DNA of 64,000 nt from Labilibaculum euxinicum (GTDB lineage Bacteria; Bacteroidota; Bacteroidia; Bacteroidales; Marinifilaceae): NCBI RefSeq assembly GCF_009795715.1, contig NZ_WTCR01000006.1:124001-188000 (forward strand). The letters are read 5' to 3'. Each line of letters begins with the position of its first letter. Position 1 is the first letter of the stretch. Made by a program: the position numbers and the translations under genes. The notes under the pieces are model-generated. The model ran no database searches. It worked only from the letters and a program-made list of their open reading frames with translations, and was not told the DNA's origin. Positions 43,477 to 51,525 of this stretch are shown in pieces.

Positions 43477-43809
43477 TTATACCAATTTAATTTCAAAATG
43501 GACTTTAATTAAGAAACTGTTTAAAAATTTATCCTTTAGCTTTTTTATAAGCCAAAAACCTCATAATTGCGTTAAATTATCTTTAAATAGAACCACTATT
43601 CGCATCAAATTTGCCTTATTCTGAGTCTTTTTTCTTCGATAAAAATTTCTAAAAATAAATTTAAACAGCTTCTAAAATGAATTAATTTTTAGCTGTACCG
43701 AGGCAAAAAAATAAAGCACAGCCATGTTGCGATGCATCTTTTTTAACGAAGATATAGCTGAAAAGAAAACATTTTATAAGGTGTGTTTTGATGTTAATTT
43801 GGTAGTAAA
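43477..43809. mobile_element. MITE-like element A, copy 1, interrupted by element B
   Basis: Minus the insertion at 43513-43675 this is a 170-bp sequence about 95 percent identical to 45504-45672. Its ends are imperfect inverted repeats: left TATACCAATTTAATTTCAAAA, and the right end read backwards CTACCAAATTAACATCAAAA. It has no coding capacity. The right end lies 123 bp before the ATG of the 34-residue-repeat protein gene. Confidence 0.75.
43513..43672. mobile_element. MITE-like element B inserted in element A
   Basis: A 160-bp non-coding element with terminal inverted repeats GAAACTGTTTAAAAATTTAT and (right end reversed) GAAGCTGTTTAAATTTATTT. It is flanked by TAA on both sides (43510-43512 and 43673-43675). 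The uninterrupted copy of element A at 45504-45672 has a single TAA there, so a 3-bp target duplication is directly visible. A 3-bp TNA target is typical of some IS5-group elements; the mobilising transposase is not in the window. Confidence 0.85.
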
Positions 43810-43932
43810 TACAATTCACTACATTCATTTTACAGTTGAGTTCATTTTATTTTTCATTCCAATAACTATTTCGGAATATTGTATCGTAGAAAAATTACAA
43901 AAGACATACAAACAACAACTAATACTTACGAT

Positions 43933-45372
43933 ATGAGAAAGTACATTCAGTTTTTACTGGTAATGGCAGCCATAATACTGCTTCCGGCTTACAATGGTTT
44001 GGCGGTTAAGCCCGATAAAGAAATAACGATTAGCTGGAATTCGAACTGGAATCGTGAAAATCTCAAGATTTCAAGCAACGGAGATATCGAATTTAATGAT
44101 TCTTATACAGATATTATTTCGATATCGGATGGCGGATATCTGAAAATCAGTATGGTGAGTTTCGGAATGAAACGAAAGCTATACGTAAGTTCGGACAACG
44201 GACGTGTTGCTTACCGATACTTTGAAGGAAATAAGGAGGTGAATTTTGAACCCAAAGGCCGGGAATGGATGAAAAAGGTATTGCCTGATGTAATTCGTAA
44301 TTCGGGATTGGATTTGGAGAACCGTGTTAATAAGATTTATCAGAAGAAAGGCATCACCGGCTTTTTATCGGAACTTGAGAAAACCGACAGTGACTATTTT
44401 AGTTCAAGAATGGTTGAATATCTTTTGAAGAATAATAAATTGAACAAGTCGGAACTGCAAAATTTGCTGAGGGAGTTTCCTTACCGGATTGATTCTGATT
44501 ACGAGTTGTCTCAGATTTTTAAAAAGTACAATCCTGTATTTTTGCAAGACGCAGAAGTCTCGGCTGAATTTTTTCAAAGCCTGGCAGAATTATCCTCAAA
44601 CTACGAATTATCTCAGGTGTTGTCATCTGTTTACAAACTGAATGATTTAACCAACGAAAATTTCACCTTTTTTATCGGTGCTTTTGATGACATTTCATCG
44701 GATTACGAAAAATCCAATTTAATGAAACTGGCCTTGCATGATGACAGGCTGACCAATGAACAATTAACTGTTTTGCTAAAGGAAGCGGAAGACCTTTCAT
44801 CGGACTACGAAAAATCCCAGATTATTAAGTCGTTGCTGAACGCAGACGGACTCTCAACAAAGAATCTGAATGAAATAATTGAACTAACTCACAGCTTATC
44901 TTCCGATTACGAAAGGACACAAATTATTGGTACAATGATCAAGAGAGGTTTGCTGAATACGTCTAATCTGGATGAATTTAATGAATTGATTGAAGAGATA
45001 TCATCAGAATATTCCTATACGCAAATATTAAATGAGTTGATTGGTTATGAGGCCTTAGGCACCGAGCGTTTTAACTACTTGATAAAAGCATCCGATAATA
45101 TTTCTTCTTCGTATGAACTAAGTAAGTTTTACAATTCGTTGTTAAATCAGGAGGAATTGTCAGTAGAACAGCAGTTGGAACTTATTTCAAAATCTGAGAA
45201 TATTTCTTCCAATTACGAATTGGCTCAATTCCTGACCAGAGCAAGTCAAAAAATGGATTTAAGCAATGAGAAAGTTTATGATGCTCTTATTAATGCGACT
45301 CAGGAAATTAGTTCTGAATATGAATATGGAAAAGTTATGAAAGCGATTTATTCTCATCGGAAAGACAGATAA
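43933..45372 (+). CDS. Exported protein of ten 34-residue helical repeats
   Basis: A 479-residue protein from the ATG at 43933; an upstream TTG frame extension is discounted. It has a signal peptide (MRKYIQFLLVMAAIILLPAY), an N-terminal beta-rich domain (about 25-130: ITISWNSNWNRENLKISSNG) and then ten repeats, each opening S[DNES]Y with helix A like SDYEKSQIIKSLL and helix B like LSTKNLNEIIELTHSLS. Seven or more repeats are exactly 34 residues, two are 35. Similar SDY repeats occur in periplasmic parts of some Bacteroidota M56 (BlaR1-like) proteins, which is my recollection. The gene precedes the LytS/LytTR operon, and both carry element A upstream. Confidence 0.8.
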   Translation: MRKYIQFLLVMAAIILLPAYNGLAVKPDKEITISWNSNWNRENLKISSNGDIEFNDSYTDIISISDGGYLKISMVSFGMKRKLYVSSDNGRVAYRYFEGNKEVNFEPKGREWMKKVLPDVIRNSGLDLENRVNKIYQKKGITGFLSELEKTDSDYFSSRMVEYLLKNNKLNKSELQNLLREFPYRIDSDYELSQIFKKYNPVFLQDAEVSAEFFQSLAELSSNYELSQVLSSVYKLNDLTNENFTFFIGAFDDISSDYEKSNLMKLALHDDRLTNEQLTVLLKEAEDLSSDYEKSQIIKSLLNADGLSTKNLNEIIELTHSLSSDYERTQIIGTMIKRGLLNTSNLDEFNELIEEISSEYSYTQILNELIGYEALGTERFNYLIKASDNISSSYELSKFYNSLLNQEELSVEQQLELISKSENISSNYELAQFLTRASQKMDLSNEKVYDALINATQEISSEYEYGKVMKAIYSHRKDR

Positions 45373-45702
45373 GCCGGTTGTTGTAGCTTAATAGGATGAT
45401 CAACAGTTTATGAATTGTTTTTGGCATGCAATTACACAATTAGAACGAAATTGAGGTTGTAAAAGTTTGATTTCTGACTGCTTGCCTTACCTTTAGCAGG
45501 TATTTATACCAATTTAATTTCAAAACAGACTTTAATTAAAATGAATTAATTTTTAGCTGTATCGAGGCATAAAAGTAAAGCACAGCCATGTTGCGATGCA
45601 TCTTTTTTAACGAAGATATAGCTGAAAAGAAACATTTTATAAGGCATGTTTTGATGTTAATTTGGTAGTAAACTAAATAGAATTAAAATCCCATACGTAC
45701 CA
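45373..45702. other. Gap holding element A copy 2
   Basis: A 330-bp gap. Its last 200 bp are element A copy 2 and a 30-bp leader; the first 130 bp show no gene and no clear terminator after the repeat-protein gene, so read-through into the kinase operon is possible. Confidence 0.5.
45504..45672. mobile_element. MITE-like element A, copy 2, intact
   Basis: A 169-bp sequence with imperfect terminal inverted repeats (TTATACCAATTTAATTTC and reversed right end TTTACTACCAAATTAAC). It matches the flanks of element B in copy 1. The right end contains TAATTTGG, one mismatch from the TAnnTTTG -7 pattern, facing the kinase gene 30 bp away. Confidence 0.75.
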
Positions 45703-46740
45703 ATGAATAAATACTTACGTTTTTTTATCATCAGTCCTGTTCTTGGAATTTTGTGCTATATGCTGGCTTTTTATGGTCATGCAGGCGAATTGCCTGGTGC
45801 CGAATTTAAATTCAACGGCTATGTGCCCAGCGCCATATTTGGTTTGTGGGCCGGCTTTTCGGCATTGGGAATCGGGCAGTATTTAAACAGGAACTTTAAC
45901 TGGCGTCAAAAACATGCGCTTCGTTTTTTAATTCAATGTGTTTTGCTGTATGTGGTAGGTTTGGTACTGGTGGCAATTTATTCCGAAATGTTTTTAATAT
46001 CGCTGCGGACCGAACTAACTTATACCCAGTTTTGGTTGATGTATAAAGATGAATTCTTTAAATCGGTCATCATTCTTTTTATTCTCGTATTTGTTTATTC
46101 CCTTTTGGATTTTGTGGTGTATTCTTACAATCAGATGAAGGAAGAGGAGATTCGCTCGGCAGAGATGATCAACAATCAGCTTAATCTGCAGTTTGAAGCG
46201 CTAAAATCTCAATTGGATCCTCACTTTTTGTTCAATTCCCTGAATACAATTTCTTCGCTGCTTTATAAGAATACCGAAAAGGCGGAACGCTTTATCCGTA
46301 TGTTTGCCGAAAGCTATCGCTTTATATTTAAGCAGAACGATCAGGCATTAATTCCTTTGCAAAAGGAGTTGGATTTTGTGCAGGCCTACAATTATTTGCT
46401 GGAGGTCCGGTTTCAGGAAGCATACGAATTAAAGATCAACTTACCTGATGCTGTTTTAAAAAGCTATGTTCCCCCTTTAAGCGTGCAGATGCTGGTTGAG
46501 AATGCAATTAAACACAATCTGATATCGCAAACAACACCTCTGGCCGTGGAAATTGATTCGGAGAAGAATTATTTGTGCGTTCGAAACAATATCAATCCGT
46601 TGCGGGAGCAACCGGAATCATTTCAAATTGGCATCGAAAATATTCGAAAGAGATACTCTTATTTTACCGATGAAACGATTCTTCTGGATAAAAATGAACA
46701 TTTTAAAGTCAGTTTACCACTGATTTCTCAATTGAAATAA
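45703..46740 (+). CDS. LytS-type sensor histidine kinase
   Basis: A 345-residue membrane kinase with four spans in the first 145 residues (for example FFIISPVLGILCYMLAFY and SVIILFILVFVYSLLDFVVY), a short coiled region and a His_kinase domain: SQLDPHFLFNSLNTISSLLY with phospho-acceptor His174, PLQKELDFVQAYNYLL, PPLSVQMLVENAIKHN (N box), and GIENIRKRYSYF. The glycine-rich G box of HATPase is short, as usual for this class. It is the first of three genes with a pseudokinase and a LytTR regulator. Confidence 0.92.
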   Translation: MNKYLRFFIISPVLGILCYMLAFYGHAGELPGAEFKFNGYVPSAIFGLWAGFSALGIGQYLNRNFNWRQKHALRFLIQCVLLYVVGLVLVAIYSEMFLISLRTELTYTQFWLMYKDEFFKSVIILFILVFVYSLLDFVVYSYNQMKEEEIRSAEMINNQLNLQFEALKSQLDPHFLFNSLNTISSLLYKNTEKAERFIRMFAESYRFIFKQNDQALIPLQKELDFVQAYNYLLEVRFQEAYELKINLPDAVLKSYVPPLSVQMLVENAIKHNLISQTTPLAVEIDSEKNYLCVRNNINPLREQPESFQIGIENIRKRYSYFTDETILLDKNEHFKVSLPLISQLK

Positions 46741-46774
46741 TTGAGATGCAAAACCAAAAGAACAGCTGTTAACT

Positions 46775-47815
46775 ATGAAGACTAATTATTTAAACCATCT
46801 GCTTTACAGGATATTTGCACCACCCTTGGTTGCTGTATTCGTTTACCTGCTGATATTACTAATATTCGACCGGCTCTCTGAAATTGGAAACAATTTTAGT
46901 CCGGAAGAAGTCCTCTTTTTGGGAATTGTGACTTTTGCCTTATTCGAAGTATATCGTTTTTGGATTCATCAAACAGAGAAAATCGGCTATTTAAAAGAAC
47001 GGGTTTTGCTGAAATCCTTTTTCCTGTTTATGGGAAGTTTTATCATCACAATCATTCTTATTTTCGCTTTCTTTTCTCTCTACTTCATTTATTTTCTGGG
47101 ATTAAGTGAGTTTAGGGCCGAATTGACCTCTTTCCTTATTGTATTTACTTTAGTTGGTATTTTGTATCATCTTTTTTATCTGAGTATCCGGTTTTTAGAT
47201 CAGCAAAAGGTGCTTCTGCTGGAGAAAGAGGAAATGAATCGGAAAAATATTGAATTTGAACTGCAGGTGTTTAAAAATAAGATTAATCCCGATTTCTTAT
47301 ATCAGTCACTTGAAAGTGTAATTAGTCTGATTCGGAAAAAAGAAGTTGATCAGGCAGAAAAATTCATCGATCATCTGGCTTTATTTTACCGGCGGATATT
47401 AGGGAACAGATACTCTGAAATTATCTCGCTTGAAGAGGAAATTCAAAAGGTTGATCAGTACATACTCATCAGAAATAACAAATACAACAACAACTTTATT
47501 GTCAATTGGAAGATTGAATCATCTCTAAAAGATATTCATATTGTTCCCAATACTGTTTTGCAGGTATTGCAAATGATAGAATATTACCAAATGGTTGATT
47601 TAAATACCAAATTGGTTGTTGATGTGAGCGAAAATGATGATTATATTGTATTTTATTTTTTGTCTTCGGAGCGGTTAACTCCGGTTCCCAAATTGAATAT
47701 GCAGATGAAGACTCTAAAAAAAGCCATTGGGTTTTATTCAAATAAGGAGCTTGTTTGGGATAAAAAGAGTGAATTCACCCAAATTTACATTCCGAAAATT
47801 AATTTAGAAGATTAG
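46775..47815 (+). CDS. LytS-like pseudokinase
   Basis: A 346-residue protein with the same layout as the preceding kinase: four hydrophobic spans (VFVYLLILLIFDRL, SFIITIILIFAFFSLYFIYF), a coiled segment, then a His_kinase-like domain. The acceptor motif reads INPDFLYQSLES, with Asp173 in place of His, and the N box region reads LQVLQMIEYYQMV with no ENAIKHN. The PLQKEL position is kept as SLEEEI. It therefore cannot autophosphorylate in the normal way and probably binds ATP poorly if at all. It starts 34 bp after the kinase and ends 31 bp before the regulator, which suggests a partner or decoy role. Confidence 0.88.
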   Translation: MKTNYLNHLLYRIFAPPLVAVFVYLLILLIFDRLSEIGNNFSPEEVLFLGIVTFALFEVYRFWIHQTEKIGYLKERVLLKSFFLFMGSFIITIILIFAFFSLYFIYFLGLSEFRAELTSFLIVFTLVGILYHLFYLSIRFLDQQKVLLLEKEEMNRKNIEFELQVFKNKINPDFLYQSLESVISLIRKKEVDQAEKFIDHLALFYRRILGNRYSEIISLEEEIQKVDQYILIRNNKYNNNFIVNWKIESSLKDIHIVPNTVLQVLQMIEYYQMVDLNTKLVVDVSENDDYIVFYFLSSERLTPVPKLNMQMKTLKKAIGFYSNKELVWDKKSEFTQIYIPKINLED

Positions 47816-47846
47816 CAAATTACTAAACCACATATCCCTGTTAACC

Positions 47847-48623
47847 ATGAATGTAGTTATTATAGAAGATGAAGTATTGGCCGCCGATAAGTTGGAACGT
47901 TTGCTGCACAAATACGATCCCAAAATTAAGGTGATTGATCGGTTCGATTCAGTTACTGATTCCTCCATCTGGTTGGGAAACCCATCGAACAAAGCTGATT
48001 TGATTTTTTTGGATATCCATTTGGTTGATGGATTGAGCTTCGAAATATTTAATAGAGTACAGGTGCAAACACCTATTATTTTTACTACTGCATACAACGA
48101 ATATGCTTTGAATGCATTTAAATTAAACAGCATCGATTATCTGTTAAAACCGGTTACGTTTGATAATCTGTATACCAGTTTGAAAAAATTAGAGCACCTT
48201 AAGGAATCATTGACAGGAGCCGGGAATATGAGGAATTTTGAGGAGTTAAGCAATGCTCTGGCTACTATTCAAAAAAATTACAAAACACGTTTCATGGTGA
48301 AAATCGGCGAAAAACTAAGATCCTTTAAGGCAGAGGATATTTCTGTTTTTTATGCCGATGGCAGAGACGTGTTTATTCTGTTGAAAGAAGGCAACCGCTA
48401 CATTATCGATTACAAAATGGAAGAGCTTCAGGATTTGTTGAATCCGGAGCAGTTTTACCGGATCAGCCGCTCCTTTATCGTTAACATCAATTCAATAAAC
48501 GGTGTTTCGGTTCACTCCAATTCACGACTGAAAGTAGATTTATCGCAGGAATTTGACAGGGAATTGATTGTAAGCAGAGAAAAGGTTGGCAGCTTTAAAG
48601 ATTGGTTTAACGGTGCCGGATAG
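47847..48623 (+). CDS. LytTR-type response regulator
   Basis: A 258-residue regulator. The receiver domain (1-120) has acidic residues in VVIIEDE, acceptor Asp56 in LIFLDIHLVDG, Thr in FTTAYNEYAL and Lys in YLLKPVTF. The LytTR DNA-binding domain (about 147-250) has FMVKIGEKLRSFKAEDISVF, YADGRDVFI, FYRISRSFIVNINSI and the late REKVGSFKDWF. It is the output of the kinase/pseudokinase operon. The regulated genes are unknown; the adjacent repeat protein is a candidate. Confidence 0.94.
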   Translation: MNVVIIEDEVLAADKLERLLHKYDPKIKVIDRFDSVTDSSIWLGNPSNKADLIFLDIHLVDGLSFEIFNRVQVQTPIIFTTAYNEYALNAFKLNSIDYLLKPVTFDNLYTSLKKLEHLKESLTGAGNMRNFEELSNALATIQKNYKTRFMVKIGEKLRSFKAEDISVFYADGRDVFILLKEGNRYIIDYKMEELQDLLNPEQFYRISRSFIVNINSINGVSVHSNSRLKVDLSQEFDRELIVSREKVGSFKDWFNGAG

Positions 48624-48850
48624 TTGGCTTCTGATTTGACACAAAGCTCGATATAGCCTTCTGTTTTAAATGAACAGCAAAACTAAAATGCTGACATCGA
48701 TATTCTGTACGATGGATCGTAAAATTACAGGACAGTGAACACGAATTAGTTTTTTGTTTGGAAATTAAAAGCCGGAAATTTTTGTATTATGAATGTTTAG
48801 ACTAATTTTAAATAAGAAGTTTGAATATTCACTAAAAAATAATGATTTCC

Positions 48851-49339
48851 ATGAAAACTTTACAATCAAAAATTGGAGCAGGCCTTCTAATCTTGTTTAT
48901 GCTCTTGCTTGGGGCTTCATCAAAAACGTATGCTCATTGCGAGATTCCCTGCGGAATTTATGCTGATTCTCTTCGGATCATCATGTTGTCGGAAGACATT
49001 GAAACCATTGAGAAAAGCATGAAAAAGATTACCGAATTATCATCTTCAGAGAAAGTAGACTACAATCAACTGGTTCGATGGATCACCAATAAAGAAGATC
49101 ATGCCAATAAAATTCAGGATATTGCTACCCAGTATTTTATGTTTCAAAGGGTAAAAGTTTCAGATGATCCTAAAATAATGGCTAAAAATGCAGAACTTCT
49201 GGCTGTTCTTCACGAAATTTGTGTTTATGCAATGAAGTCTAAACAAACTACAGATCTAACATATGTTGAGAAGTTAAAGCAGGCAGTTCAAGAGCTTTCT
49301 CATTTGTATTTTGGAGAGGAAGAACATCATCATCATTAA
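48851..49339 (+). CDS. sodN: Exported nickel superoxide dismutase
   Basis: A protein of 162 residues. A signal peptide ends TYA and the next residues are HCEIPCGIYAD: the nickel hook HCxxPCGxY with His1, Cys2 and Cys6 of the mature protein. Cleavage by signal peptidase would free the His amino terminus that nickel binding needs. The rest is the expected four-helix protein (VRWITNKEDHANKIQDIATQ). It ends in four His after a Glu-rich stretch (GEEEHHHH), not part of the classical enzyme. The ATG at 48851 is preferred over one three codons earlier. It dismutates superoxide outside the cytoplasmic membrane. No sodX-type peptidase gene is adjacent. Confidence 0.9.
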   Translation: MKTLQSKIGAGLLILFMLLLGASSKTYAHCEIPCGIYADSLRIIMLSEDIETIEKSMKKITELSSSEKVDYNQLVRWITNKEDHANKIQDIATQYFMFQRVKVSDDPKIMAKNAELLAVLHEICVYAMKSKQTTDLTYVEKLKQAVQELSHLYFGEEEHHHH

Positions 49340-50235: not shown

Positions 50236-51525
50236 ATGAAAAAGATACTAAGTTTAGCCACAGCAGGCGCATTGTTATTCTCAGCCTGCAATTCAGACGA
50301 TGATGTTGTAATGAATCCACTTCAAAAAGGAGTTTTCACAGTTCGGGTGGAAAATATTCAAACAGGTAAAGATTTTTTTAGATCGGGTACATCTGATGCT
50401 GTTGGGCCTGGTGGATCATTAAGTTTTAGCTTTAATGCAGGAAAGGGTTCCCGCCTTTCTTTCGCTGCAATGTTGGCTCAATCCAATGATTTGTTTTATG
50501 GTTTTGCTGATACAGGATTAGCTTTGTACGATGCAAATGGAGATCCTGTAACAGGCGACGTAACTTCTGAAATTATGCTTTGGGATGCAGGAACAGAGGT
50601 AAATCAAGAACCAGGCGCAGGAGCCGATCAGGCTCCCAGACAAGCAGGTGCAAATACTGGAATGGATGAAAACGGAACTGTTAGATTGGTTGCCGATGTA
50701 ATGGATGGATACACCTATCCGGCAAATTCTGAAGTAATTCAGATGAGTTTGGCTCACGATGGTGGTTCTGAATTTACAGTCACCATTAATAATGTATCCG
50801 ACATGTATGCCTTCCAGTCTCCAATAGCACCAGGAGTTTGGGTAGTTCATAATTCAGGAATGCCTGTTTTCACAGCTAATCAGGTTGTAGCAAATGGTTT
50901 GGAAGGATTGGCAGAGGATGGAGAGAATGCCGGTACAGGTATGTTTTTAGCTGATAACAGTGGATATGTTTCCCCTTTTGCTCCCGGTGTATTTTCGGTA
51001 AGCACAGTTGGTTACCCATTGTTCATAGATGGTGAAGTTCAAGCGGGTAATGGTTTGGAAAAATTGGCTGAAGATGGCGATCCCGGAGATTTAGATACCT
51101 ATTTGAACGGTTTGTCTTCTGTTGTTGGTCACGGTGTTTTTTCGGAACCTGTGGGACAAAGTGGCGGAGCGCCTATATTCCCGGGAGATGCTTTCGAATT
51201 TACTTTTGAAGCAACCGAAGGCGATTATTTAAATCTGGCAACGATGTTGGGACAATCAAATGATATATTTGCAGCTTTTGATGATATGGGAATTGCTTTA
51301 TTCAATAATGGAACTCCGGTTACCGGAGATGTAACATCGATGTTAAAATTATGGGATGCCGGAACCGAGGTGAATGAATACCCGGGTGCAGGTAATAATC
51401 AGGCACCAAGACAAGCGGAACCGAATACCGGAGATACTGAAGAGGTTAAGGTAATGCAGGTGAATGACGGATTTACGTATCCTGCAGTAAATGATTTGCT
51501 TAAGGTGACAATTAGTGCCAACTAG
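50236..51525 (+). CDS. Lipoprotein with two spondin-N domains
   Basis: A 429-residue lipoprotein (AGALLFSACNSDD, Cys19). Domain 1 (about 33-195) and domain 2 (about 296-429) are homologous spondin-N-like modules: FTVRVENIQTGKDFF, SFAAMLAQSNDLFYGFADTG, GDVTSEIMLWDAGTEVN, GADQAPRQ recur as LATMLGQSNDIFAAFDDMG, GDVTSMLKLWDAGTEVNEYP, GNNQAPRQ. Between them a second repeat family is doubled (SPIAPGVWVVHNSGMPVFTA and SPFAPGVFSVSTVGYPLFID, each followed by GNGLE.LAEDG). Spondin-N folds are C2-like and can bind calcium or surfaces; the role here is unknown. It is probably surface-exposed. Confidence 0.85.
   Translation: MKKILSLATAGALLFSACNSDDDVVMNPLQKGVFTVRVENIQTGKDFFRSGTSDAVGPGGSLSFSFNAGKGSRLSFAAMLAQSNDLFYGFADTGLALYDANGDPVTGDVTSEIMLWDAGTEVNQEPGAGADQAPRQAGANTGMDENGTVRLVADVMDGYTYPANSEVIQMSLAHDGGSEFTVTINNVSDMYAFQSPIAPGVWVVHNSGMPVFTANQVVANGLEGLAEDGENAGTGMFLADNSGYVSPFAPGVFSVSTVGYPLFIDGEVQAGNGLEKLAEDGDPGDLDTYLNGLSSVVGHGVFSEPVGQSGGAPIFPGDAFEFTFEATEGDYLNLATMLGQSNDIFAAFDDMGIALFNNGTPVTGDVTSMLKLWDAGTEVNEYPGAGNNQAPRQAEPNTGDTEEVKVMQVNDGFTYPAVNDLLKVTISAN

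Follow-up and report, generated by a model that had tools for sequence, protein, structure and literature searches.

Four adjacent genes in the window, the whole 64,000-nt stretch of Labilibaculum euxinicum DNA that was analysed, form what we judge, with somewhat better than even confidence, to be a signalling operon, probably self-regulated, whose working receptor is a heteromer of a live histidine kinase and a pseudokinase that drives a response regulator. The genes lie on the forward strand in the order REP–KIN–PSK–RR, a recurring quartet in which REP is the first gene of the operon. REP (43933..45372) encodes an exported protein with a beta domain followed by an alpha solenoid; its start was taken as the ATG at 43933, and the list of open reading frames began it at a TTG at 43879. 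KIN (45703..46740) is a LytS-type histidine kinase of 345 residues with His174 and an N box containing Asn267, and PSK (46775..47815) is a LytS-like pseudokinase of 346 residues with Asp173 at the acceptor site, Glu180 and no full N box. RR (47847..48623) combines a receiver domain (Asp56, Lys101) with a LytTR DNA-binding domain in 258 residues. A tandem direct repeat on the same strand (43810..43843), TACAATTCA-N12-TACAGTTGA, starts 123 nt before the REP start and is the predicted RR operator. The triple of kinase, pseudokinase and LytTR regulator, which had been proposed in a sequence-only reading, is real, as coordinates, Pfam matches and motifs agree, and the gene order is as tight as proposed there, with gaps of 34 nt between KIN and PSK and 31 nt between PSK and RR. 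That reading had overlooked REP and the likely operator.

KIN and PSK both match the Pfam His_kinase family (PF06580) above its cut-off of 25.2 bits, at 75.9 and 58.7 bits respectively. The H box of KIN reads LDPHFLFNSLN and its N box VENAIKHN. Across 35 KIN proteins, counted without L053, whose contig carries no KIN, and L114, where KIN is truncated, the acceptor His and both Asn residues of the H box are invariant, as are Glu266, Asn267, Lys270, His271, Asn272 and Gly310, and Asn313 is present in 34, with His in the one exception. RR matches the Pfam Response_reg and LytTR domains, and its Asp8, Asp56 and Lys101 are each conserved in 36/36 loci, counted without L115, which has no RR there. 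PSK resembles KIN in length (346 and 345 residues), domain place and membrane layout, as the sequence-only reading had noted, with PF06580 matched in both and the layout judged from a structural model in PSK and by eye in KIN. The PSK model has four long membrane-type helices, a DHp-like helical pair and an alpha/beta CA-like domain, with a mean pLDDT of 82 and a pTM of only 0.54; its best Foldseek match is the kinase domain of GanS (6swk) at 15% identity.

The PSK sequence reads INPDFLYQSLE at the H box and has no EN..KH box, confirming the reported loss of the acceptor His and the N box. Orthologues with an intact His and N box were sought and none was found: the acceptor His is present in 0/35 PSK proteins, some of which come from other orders, and the full EN..KH box in 0/33. 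These counts leave out L050, where PSK is split and has Glu at the site, and L053, where it is a C-terminal fragment; no box match was seen in the PSK proteins of L231 and L232 either, and no G box was seen by eye in 28 aligned rows. The residue at the acceptor position varies (D19 E6 N3 G2 S2 F1 K1 Q1), so the expectation that Asp173 would be conserved did not hold: it occurs in 19/35, namely the 12 nearest and seven scattered members. Because of this variation, Asp acting as a phosphate mimic was rejected as the shared mechanism of PSK. The conserved mark of the family is Glu180, invariant in 35/35 PSK proteins at the position where KIN has the second Asn of the H box in 35/35. Judged by these residues, the equipment for catalysis is found in only one of the two LytS proteins, KIN, and PSK appears to keep the membrane and DHp parts without the catalytic chemistry. 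The genome has ten His_kinase matches in all, and the six besides PSK that were read at the acceptor residue all have His.

It is very improbable that PSK is alive by other chemistry, with Asp or Glu as phospho-acceptor or with an unusual ATP site. A carboxylate does stand at the acceptor position in 25/35 proteins (D19, E6), and traces of the N box persist, with Glu at the Glu column in 13/33 and Asn at the Asn column in 2/33. EN...N-type strings occur somewhere in 5/33 PSK proteins, but only that of L115 lies at the box itself, where Glu and Asn are both kept and the rest of the box is gone. Against such activity stand the N, G, S, F, K or Q at the acceptor in 10/35, the absence of a full N box in 33/33 and the lack of a visible G box in the 28 rows.

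The pseudokinase is conserved in other Bacteroidota, where it accompanies a single kinase and a single LytTR regulator as the sequence-only reading had anticipated, and the triple there stands within the quartet. A search of 59 genomes (own included) with PSK gave 14 others with a match of at least 49% identity, of which that in G001 is a fragment and that in G014 is interrupted; in G048, which belongs to another family, the identity is 25%, and the other listed matches are to weaker LytS proteins. The same-genus genomes G003, G004 and G006, the last of them incomplete, have weak LytS matches only. The quartet order is found in 14 of the 16 loci of this first set, with L050 counted with its PSK in two pieces; the exceptions are L053, cut by a contig end, and L054, fetched for a weak hit and lacking PSK. 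It is also found in 18/18 named loci, whose genomes are partly the same as in the first set; loci L092–L109 cover many genomes a second time and were kept out of the counts. Within the order, 393 genomes were searched with a profile; 16 (own included) scored at least 160 bits, followed by a gap down to 140 bits. In the other 15 KIN adjoins PSK throughout (L114 in part), RR is present in 14 (not L115) and REP in 13 (the contigs of L114 and L118 end first); the full quartet was found in 11 of 14 order-level hits, L114 and L118 being cut by contig ends and L115 having no RR beside PSK. Six lower-scoring hits (L124–L129) are kinase–regulator pairs with an intact N box in 6/6 and neither PSK nor REP. 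Among 395 genomes of the phylum, five besides the own scored above 230 bits and all five carry full quartets, and nine other phylum loci have no REP and keep PHFLFN in all 11 LytS proteins. Since the profile searches scored four to seven candidates per genome, these distribution counts are lower bounds.

In a DHp–CA tree of 89 proteins, 33 PSK proteins form one clade (support 100/100) and 33 quartet KIN proteins another (100/99), apart from 23 other LytS proteins; the PSK branches L163 and L123 are very long and their placement is unsure. In six pairs among four same-genus genomes, dN/dS is 0.019–0.097 for PSK, 0.033–0.065 for KIN, 0.103–0.121 for REP and 0–0.046 for RR. These data bear on the explanation that the PSK gene of this strain is a copy in decay, as orthologues with His and N box would have indicated. 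PSK does evolve more quickly than KIN, being 73% identical to its L043 counterpart where KIN is 88% identical, and it is interrupted in L050 (7300-8341, genome G014), where an insert of about 1 kb with a transposase-like frame (by eye) splits PSK and leaves KIN, RR and REP open. However, PSK is open in the other complete loci read, its dN/dS is at most 0.10 in four genomes, and the PSK proteins are one old clade in which Glu180 is invariant and the His is absent; strain decay is thereby ruled out, and we give it practically no probability. Since one natural strain has PSK split, PSK can be dispensed with; the recurrence of the gene set in species that are only distant relatives nevertheless makes it probable that the dead twin has a function and is not junk. 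Other tandem LytS pairs before a LytTR regulator were seen at L169 (4899-7003) and L170 (4901-7032), with PHFLFN in both genes and a worn N box in one gene of each pair (IIENAVSQN in L169, FDNTFNRN in L170); these are possibly a second, independent half-dead pair.

As far as sequence and gene order can tell, the partner of PSK is most likely KIN, with which it would form a heteromer. The KIN–PSK gap has a median of 6 nt across loci and is negative in 16/32, being −4 in 9/32, with open reading frame starts taken mechanically for these counts; such short or overlapping junctions fit a coupled synthesis of two subunits. Counted against the proposed operon and its heteromer are the lack of an RR beside PSK in L115, whose PSK also keeps the Glu and Asn of the N box, the split PSK in G014, the weak LytS matches in G003, G004 and G006, the wide KIN–PSK distances in L116 (236 nt) and L159 (130 nt), and the low scores or lesser rank of the repeat before REP in a few loci, given below. 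Co-inheritance and close genes also fit PSK acting on RR or REP. PSK may be a separate receptor that binds RR, or phosphorylated RR, via its DHp surface and titrates or reads it without pairing with KIN. In a 23-row alignment of PSK, eight of the 17 invariant columns fall within the DHp part (172-222) and no invariant column follows it, and the accessible part of a report on DivL describes this pseudo-kinase as binding DivK-P at the face where response regulators dock (PMC4211667). This alternative is nevertheless unlikely, as PSK has the membrane layout of KIN and overlaps with KIN (16/32 loci) more often than with RR (5/32).

By domain, KIN and RR are ordinary members of the LytS/LytTR two-component systems exemplified by BtsSR and YpdAB, as far as the excerpts on these systems go. 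To our knowledge, BtsSR and YpdAB have one kinase per system, no PSK and no REP. The earlier statement that no system of this form has been described was too strong, because FasB/FasC/FasA and, as further cases, RocA–CovS and ChrS–HrrS (PMC9491836) precede it in the excerpts of the reports. FasB/FasC/FasA of group A Streptococcus is described as a heterodimer of two kinases, one of them proposed to be a pseudokinase, that acts with a ComE-like regulator, and is like the quartet in having two kinase-like membrane proteins and one regulator in one operon (PMC12675982). In the model given in the accessible part of that report, the kinase domain of FasB phosphorylates His246 of FasC, whereas here KIN has both the His and the N box and PSK has neither; FasBCA is also of another kinase class and phylum, and a solenoid gene is not mentioned in that part (PMC12675982). 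Since PSK lacks the acceptor His (0/35), the quartet is not a member of FasBCA. RocA is, like PSK, a pseudokinase in the membrane and is reported to bind and tune the active sensor kinase CovS, much as is proposed for PSK and KIN, but it keeps a dispensable His246, and the excerpt of the report mentions no fixed quartet with a LytTR regulator (PMC7028121). In its working, the quartet resembles a two-component system to which a pseudokinase is added as accessory subunit, and with FasBC, RocA and DivL as precedents it does not constitute a new class.

The tandem direct repeat before REP has a period of 21, with 9-bp repeats and a 12-bp spacer. An alignment of the region upstream of REP from 16 Marinifilaceae loci showed a conserved block, TACAATTCA-N12-(T/G)ACA(G/A)TT, which is present in 16/17 loci upstream of the chosen REP start; the 17th (L094) has it where the chosen start had cut. 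A matrix was built from 13 distinct Marinifilaceae sites and applied to 18 held-out loci, namely L051, which represents the deepest Marinifilaceae branch, and 17 from other families or orders; some of these are kin, L161/L162 and L120/L121 being near relatives in the DHp–CA tree, and L114, L116 and L118 were left out because REP is off or near the contig end. The 300 nt before REP outscored every other 300-nt window on both strands in 16/18 held-out loci, and in L052 and L112 one window of 52 equalled or beat it; in two later loci the site before REP was the best in the locus (L232) or the third best (L231). The top matrix score anywhere in 17 loci without a quartet was 10.6, which 14/18 held-out quartets exceeded and L052, L112, L159 and L160 did not; the repeat itself scores low in L052, L112 and L159. 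Across the 64-kb window, the operator is the sole matrix match above 10 bits, and the four BlaR1–REP loci described below score at most 4.1. A generic LytTR consensus did mostly no better than shuffled sequences upstream of REP in 27 loci, with p at or below 0.03 in L160 (p 0.005) and L117 (p 0.030) only. The support for the operator therefore comes from the family-learned motif, which held on the held-out loci, and not from the generic consensus.

At the genome level, a strict pattern matches exactly at one site of the own genome. A degenerate pattern with up to three mismatches finds the REP site with zero or one mismatch in 6/6 genomes and two extra sites with three mismatches, both in the own genome, as against two sites for the reversed control over the six genomes. 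When the pattern was loosened, the own genome had 27 sites (22 with three mismatches) and the reversed control three, and this surplus makes further RR targets possible. The conserved repeat before REP suggests autoregulation of the operon. In the excerpt of a report on the LytTR Regulatory Systems HdrRM and BrsRM, two 9-bp direct repeats with a 12-bp spacer lie upstream of the system's own promoter and mediate autoregulation; the geometry and placement before REP match this report (PMC6193735). HdrRM and BrsRM consist, in that excerpt, of a regulator and a membrane inhibitor, whereas the quartet has a kinase, a pseudokinase and a regulator with a receiver (PMC6193735). Because of its kinase and receiver, the quartet is not a LytTR Regulatory System as described.

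A dispersed repeat of about 138 nt lies at 43673-43810 and 45537-45672; its first copy ends at the first base of the operator, and its second lies inside the REP–KIN gap, whose length is 330 nt in this strain as against 162-166 nt in L039–L042. Direct repeats of 96 and 48 nt before REP and KIN were considered as twin promoters and dismissed, because the sequence is dispersed in the genome: it has 23 matches, and 15 of them, counting the query, span 118 or more of the 138 nt at 89% identity or more. No such pair before REP and KIN was found in 14 other loci compared.

REP has an N terminus that is signal-peptide-like by eye and a beta domain followed by an alpha solenoid of SSDYE repeats of about 34 residues. 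Its AlphaFold2 model (pLDDT 89.1, pTM 0.79) shows an unbroken run of 22 helices preceded by an N-terminal helix and a beta region, and the protein is 26-97% identical to 13 other members. The REP of the window has no Pfam match above the cut-off and no NCBIfam match, and those of L111 and L120 together have three NCBIfam matches, all below the cut-off. When 21 members were compared with Pfam without cut-offs, no family matched more than seven of them and the best E-value was 0.0003, both among the 25 of 32 families listed. Six weak matches to PDB sequences (best E 4e-05) are designed repeat proteins or a 'Cell surface protein', and a fold search returned generic helical repeats with TM at most 0.30, normalised by REP, among the 50 matches listed. 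A literature search over open-licence PMC papers gave no description of the quartet or of REP, which no search term could name.

In a search of 345 genomes of the phylum, REP was found in eight, namely the own, five quartet genomes and two others. In those two and two more of their class (4/195 matched), REP lies directly after genes for a BlaI repressor and a BlaR1 M56 protein, confirmed by Pfam in 4/4 (L184:5708-9690, L185:3083-6488, L233:2371-6505 and L234:5515-8879). In the class of G741 (345 genomes), REP was found in six, of which four were known quartets and two (G962, G1181), found by REP alone, proved to be quartets in 2/2. In the sampled genomes, a REP gene thus predicted the presence of a signalling partner, of either of two kinds. 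REP adjoins a membrane signal transducer in the BlaR1–BlaI loci (Peptidase_M56, Penicillinase_R), as in the quartet, although there the transducer is of the BlaR1 type and no kinase is present. The C terminus of BlaR1 carries REP-like repeats in 4/4 genomes, of the SSGDK type in L184 and L185, and BlaR1 itself scores 27 to 58 bits against a REP profile.

Because little of KIN (by eye) or PSK (in the model) seems to extend beyond the membrane, the periplasmic input is probably supplied or modulated by REP. A fuller form, in which the live and dead LytS receptor reads REP as a portable periplasmic input module that serves BlaR1–BlaI signalling in one bacterial class and a heteromeric phosphorelay in another, and in which the phosphorelay controls the production of REP, is possible but doubtful. 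Rather short of even, yet a realistic prospect, is the chance that REP is the effector, that the circuit exists to make it and that KIN and PSK sense something else in the membrane, which is compatible with the heteromer. In each of the six genomes searched with the degenerate pattern, the one site with zero or one mismatch is that before REP. In bla operons, a beta-lactamase stands at the position that REP has in the BlaI–BlaR1–REP loci. On the other side, the similar repeats in the C-terminal part of BlaR1 suggest that such repeats can also serve as a sensor.

Downstream of RR, positions 48842-49339 encode a nickel superoxide dismutase (Sod_Ni, 100.9 bits) in which HCEIPCGIY immediately follows a stretch resembling a signal peptide, and a Sod_Ni gene follows RR in 10/14 quartet loci, not in L048, L049, L051 and L052. 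A protein with two similar halves, spondin-like by eye, is encoded at 50236-51525 after a gene for a Crp-type regulator, and both are also found near the superoxide dismutase gene in L039, L043, L044, L045, L047 and L053.

In the operon proposed here, PSK would pair with KIN as a regulatory subunit, serving as an activator or a brake. The signal would be received at the envelope, with REP as a periplasmic partner or product, and KIN would phosphorylate Asp56 of RR. Phosphorylated RR would then bind the tandem repeat upstream of REP and control the operon, presumably leading to its expression.

The bacterial pseudokinases that were found in print are single cases, and PSK is an old natural family that stays beside a live partner. 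With a positive signature in Glu180 and many diverged pairs, the family offers a test of the role of a dead subunit in a histidine kinase. The repeat before REP provides a ready reporter. REP matches no curated family and is common to two unrelated signalling chassis, and its ligand would bear on both.
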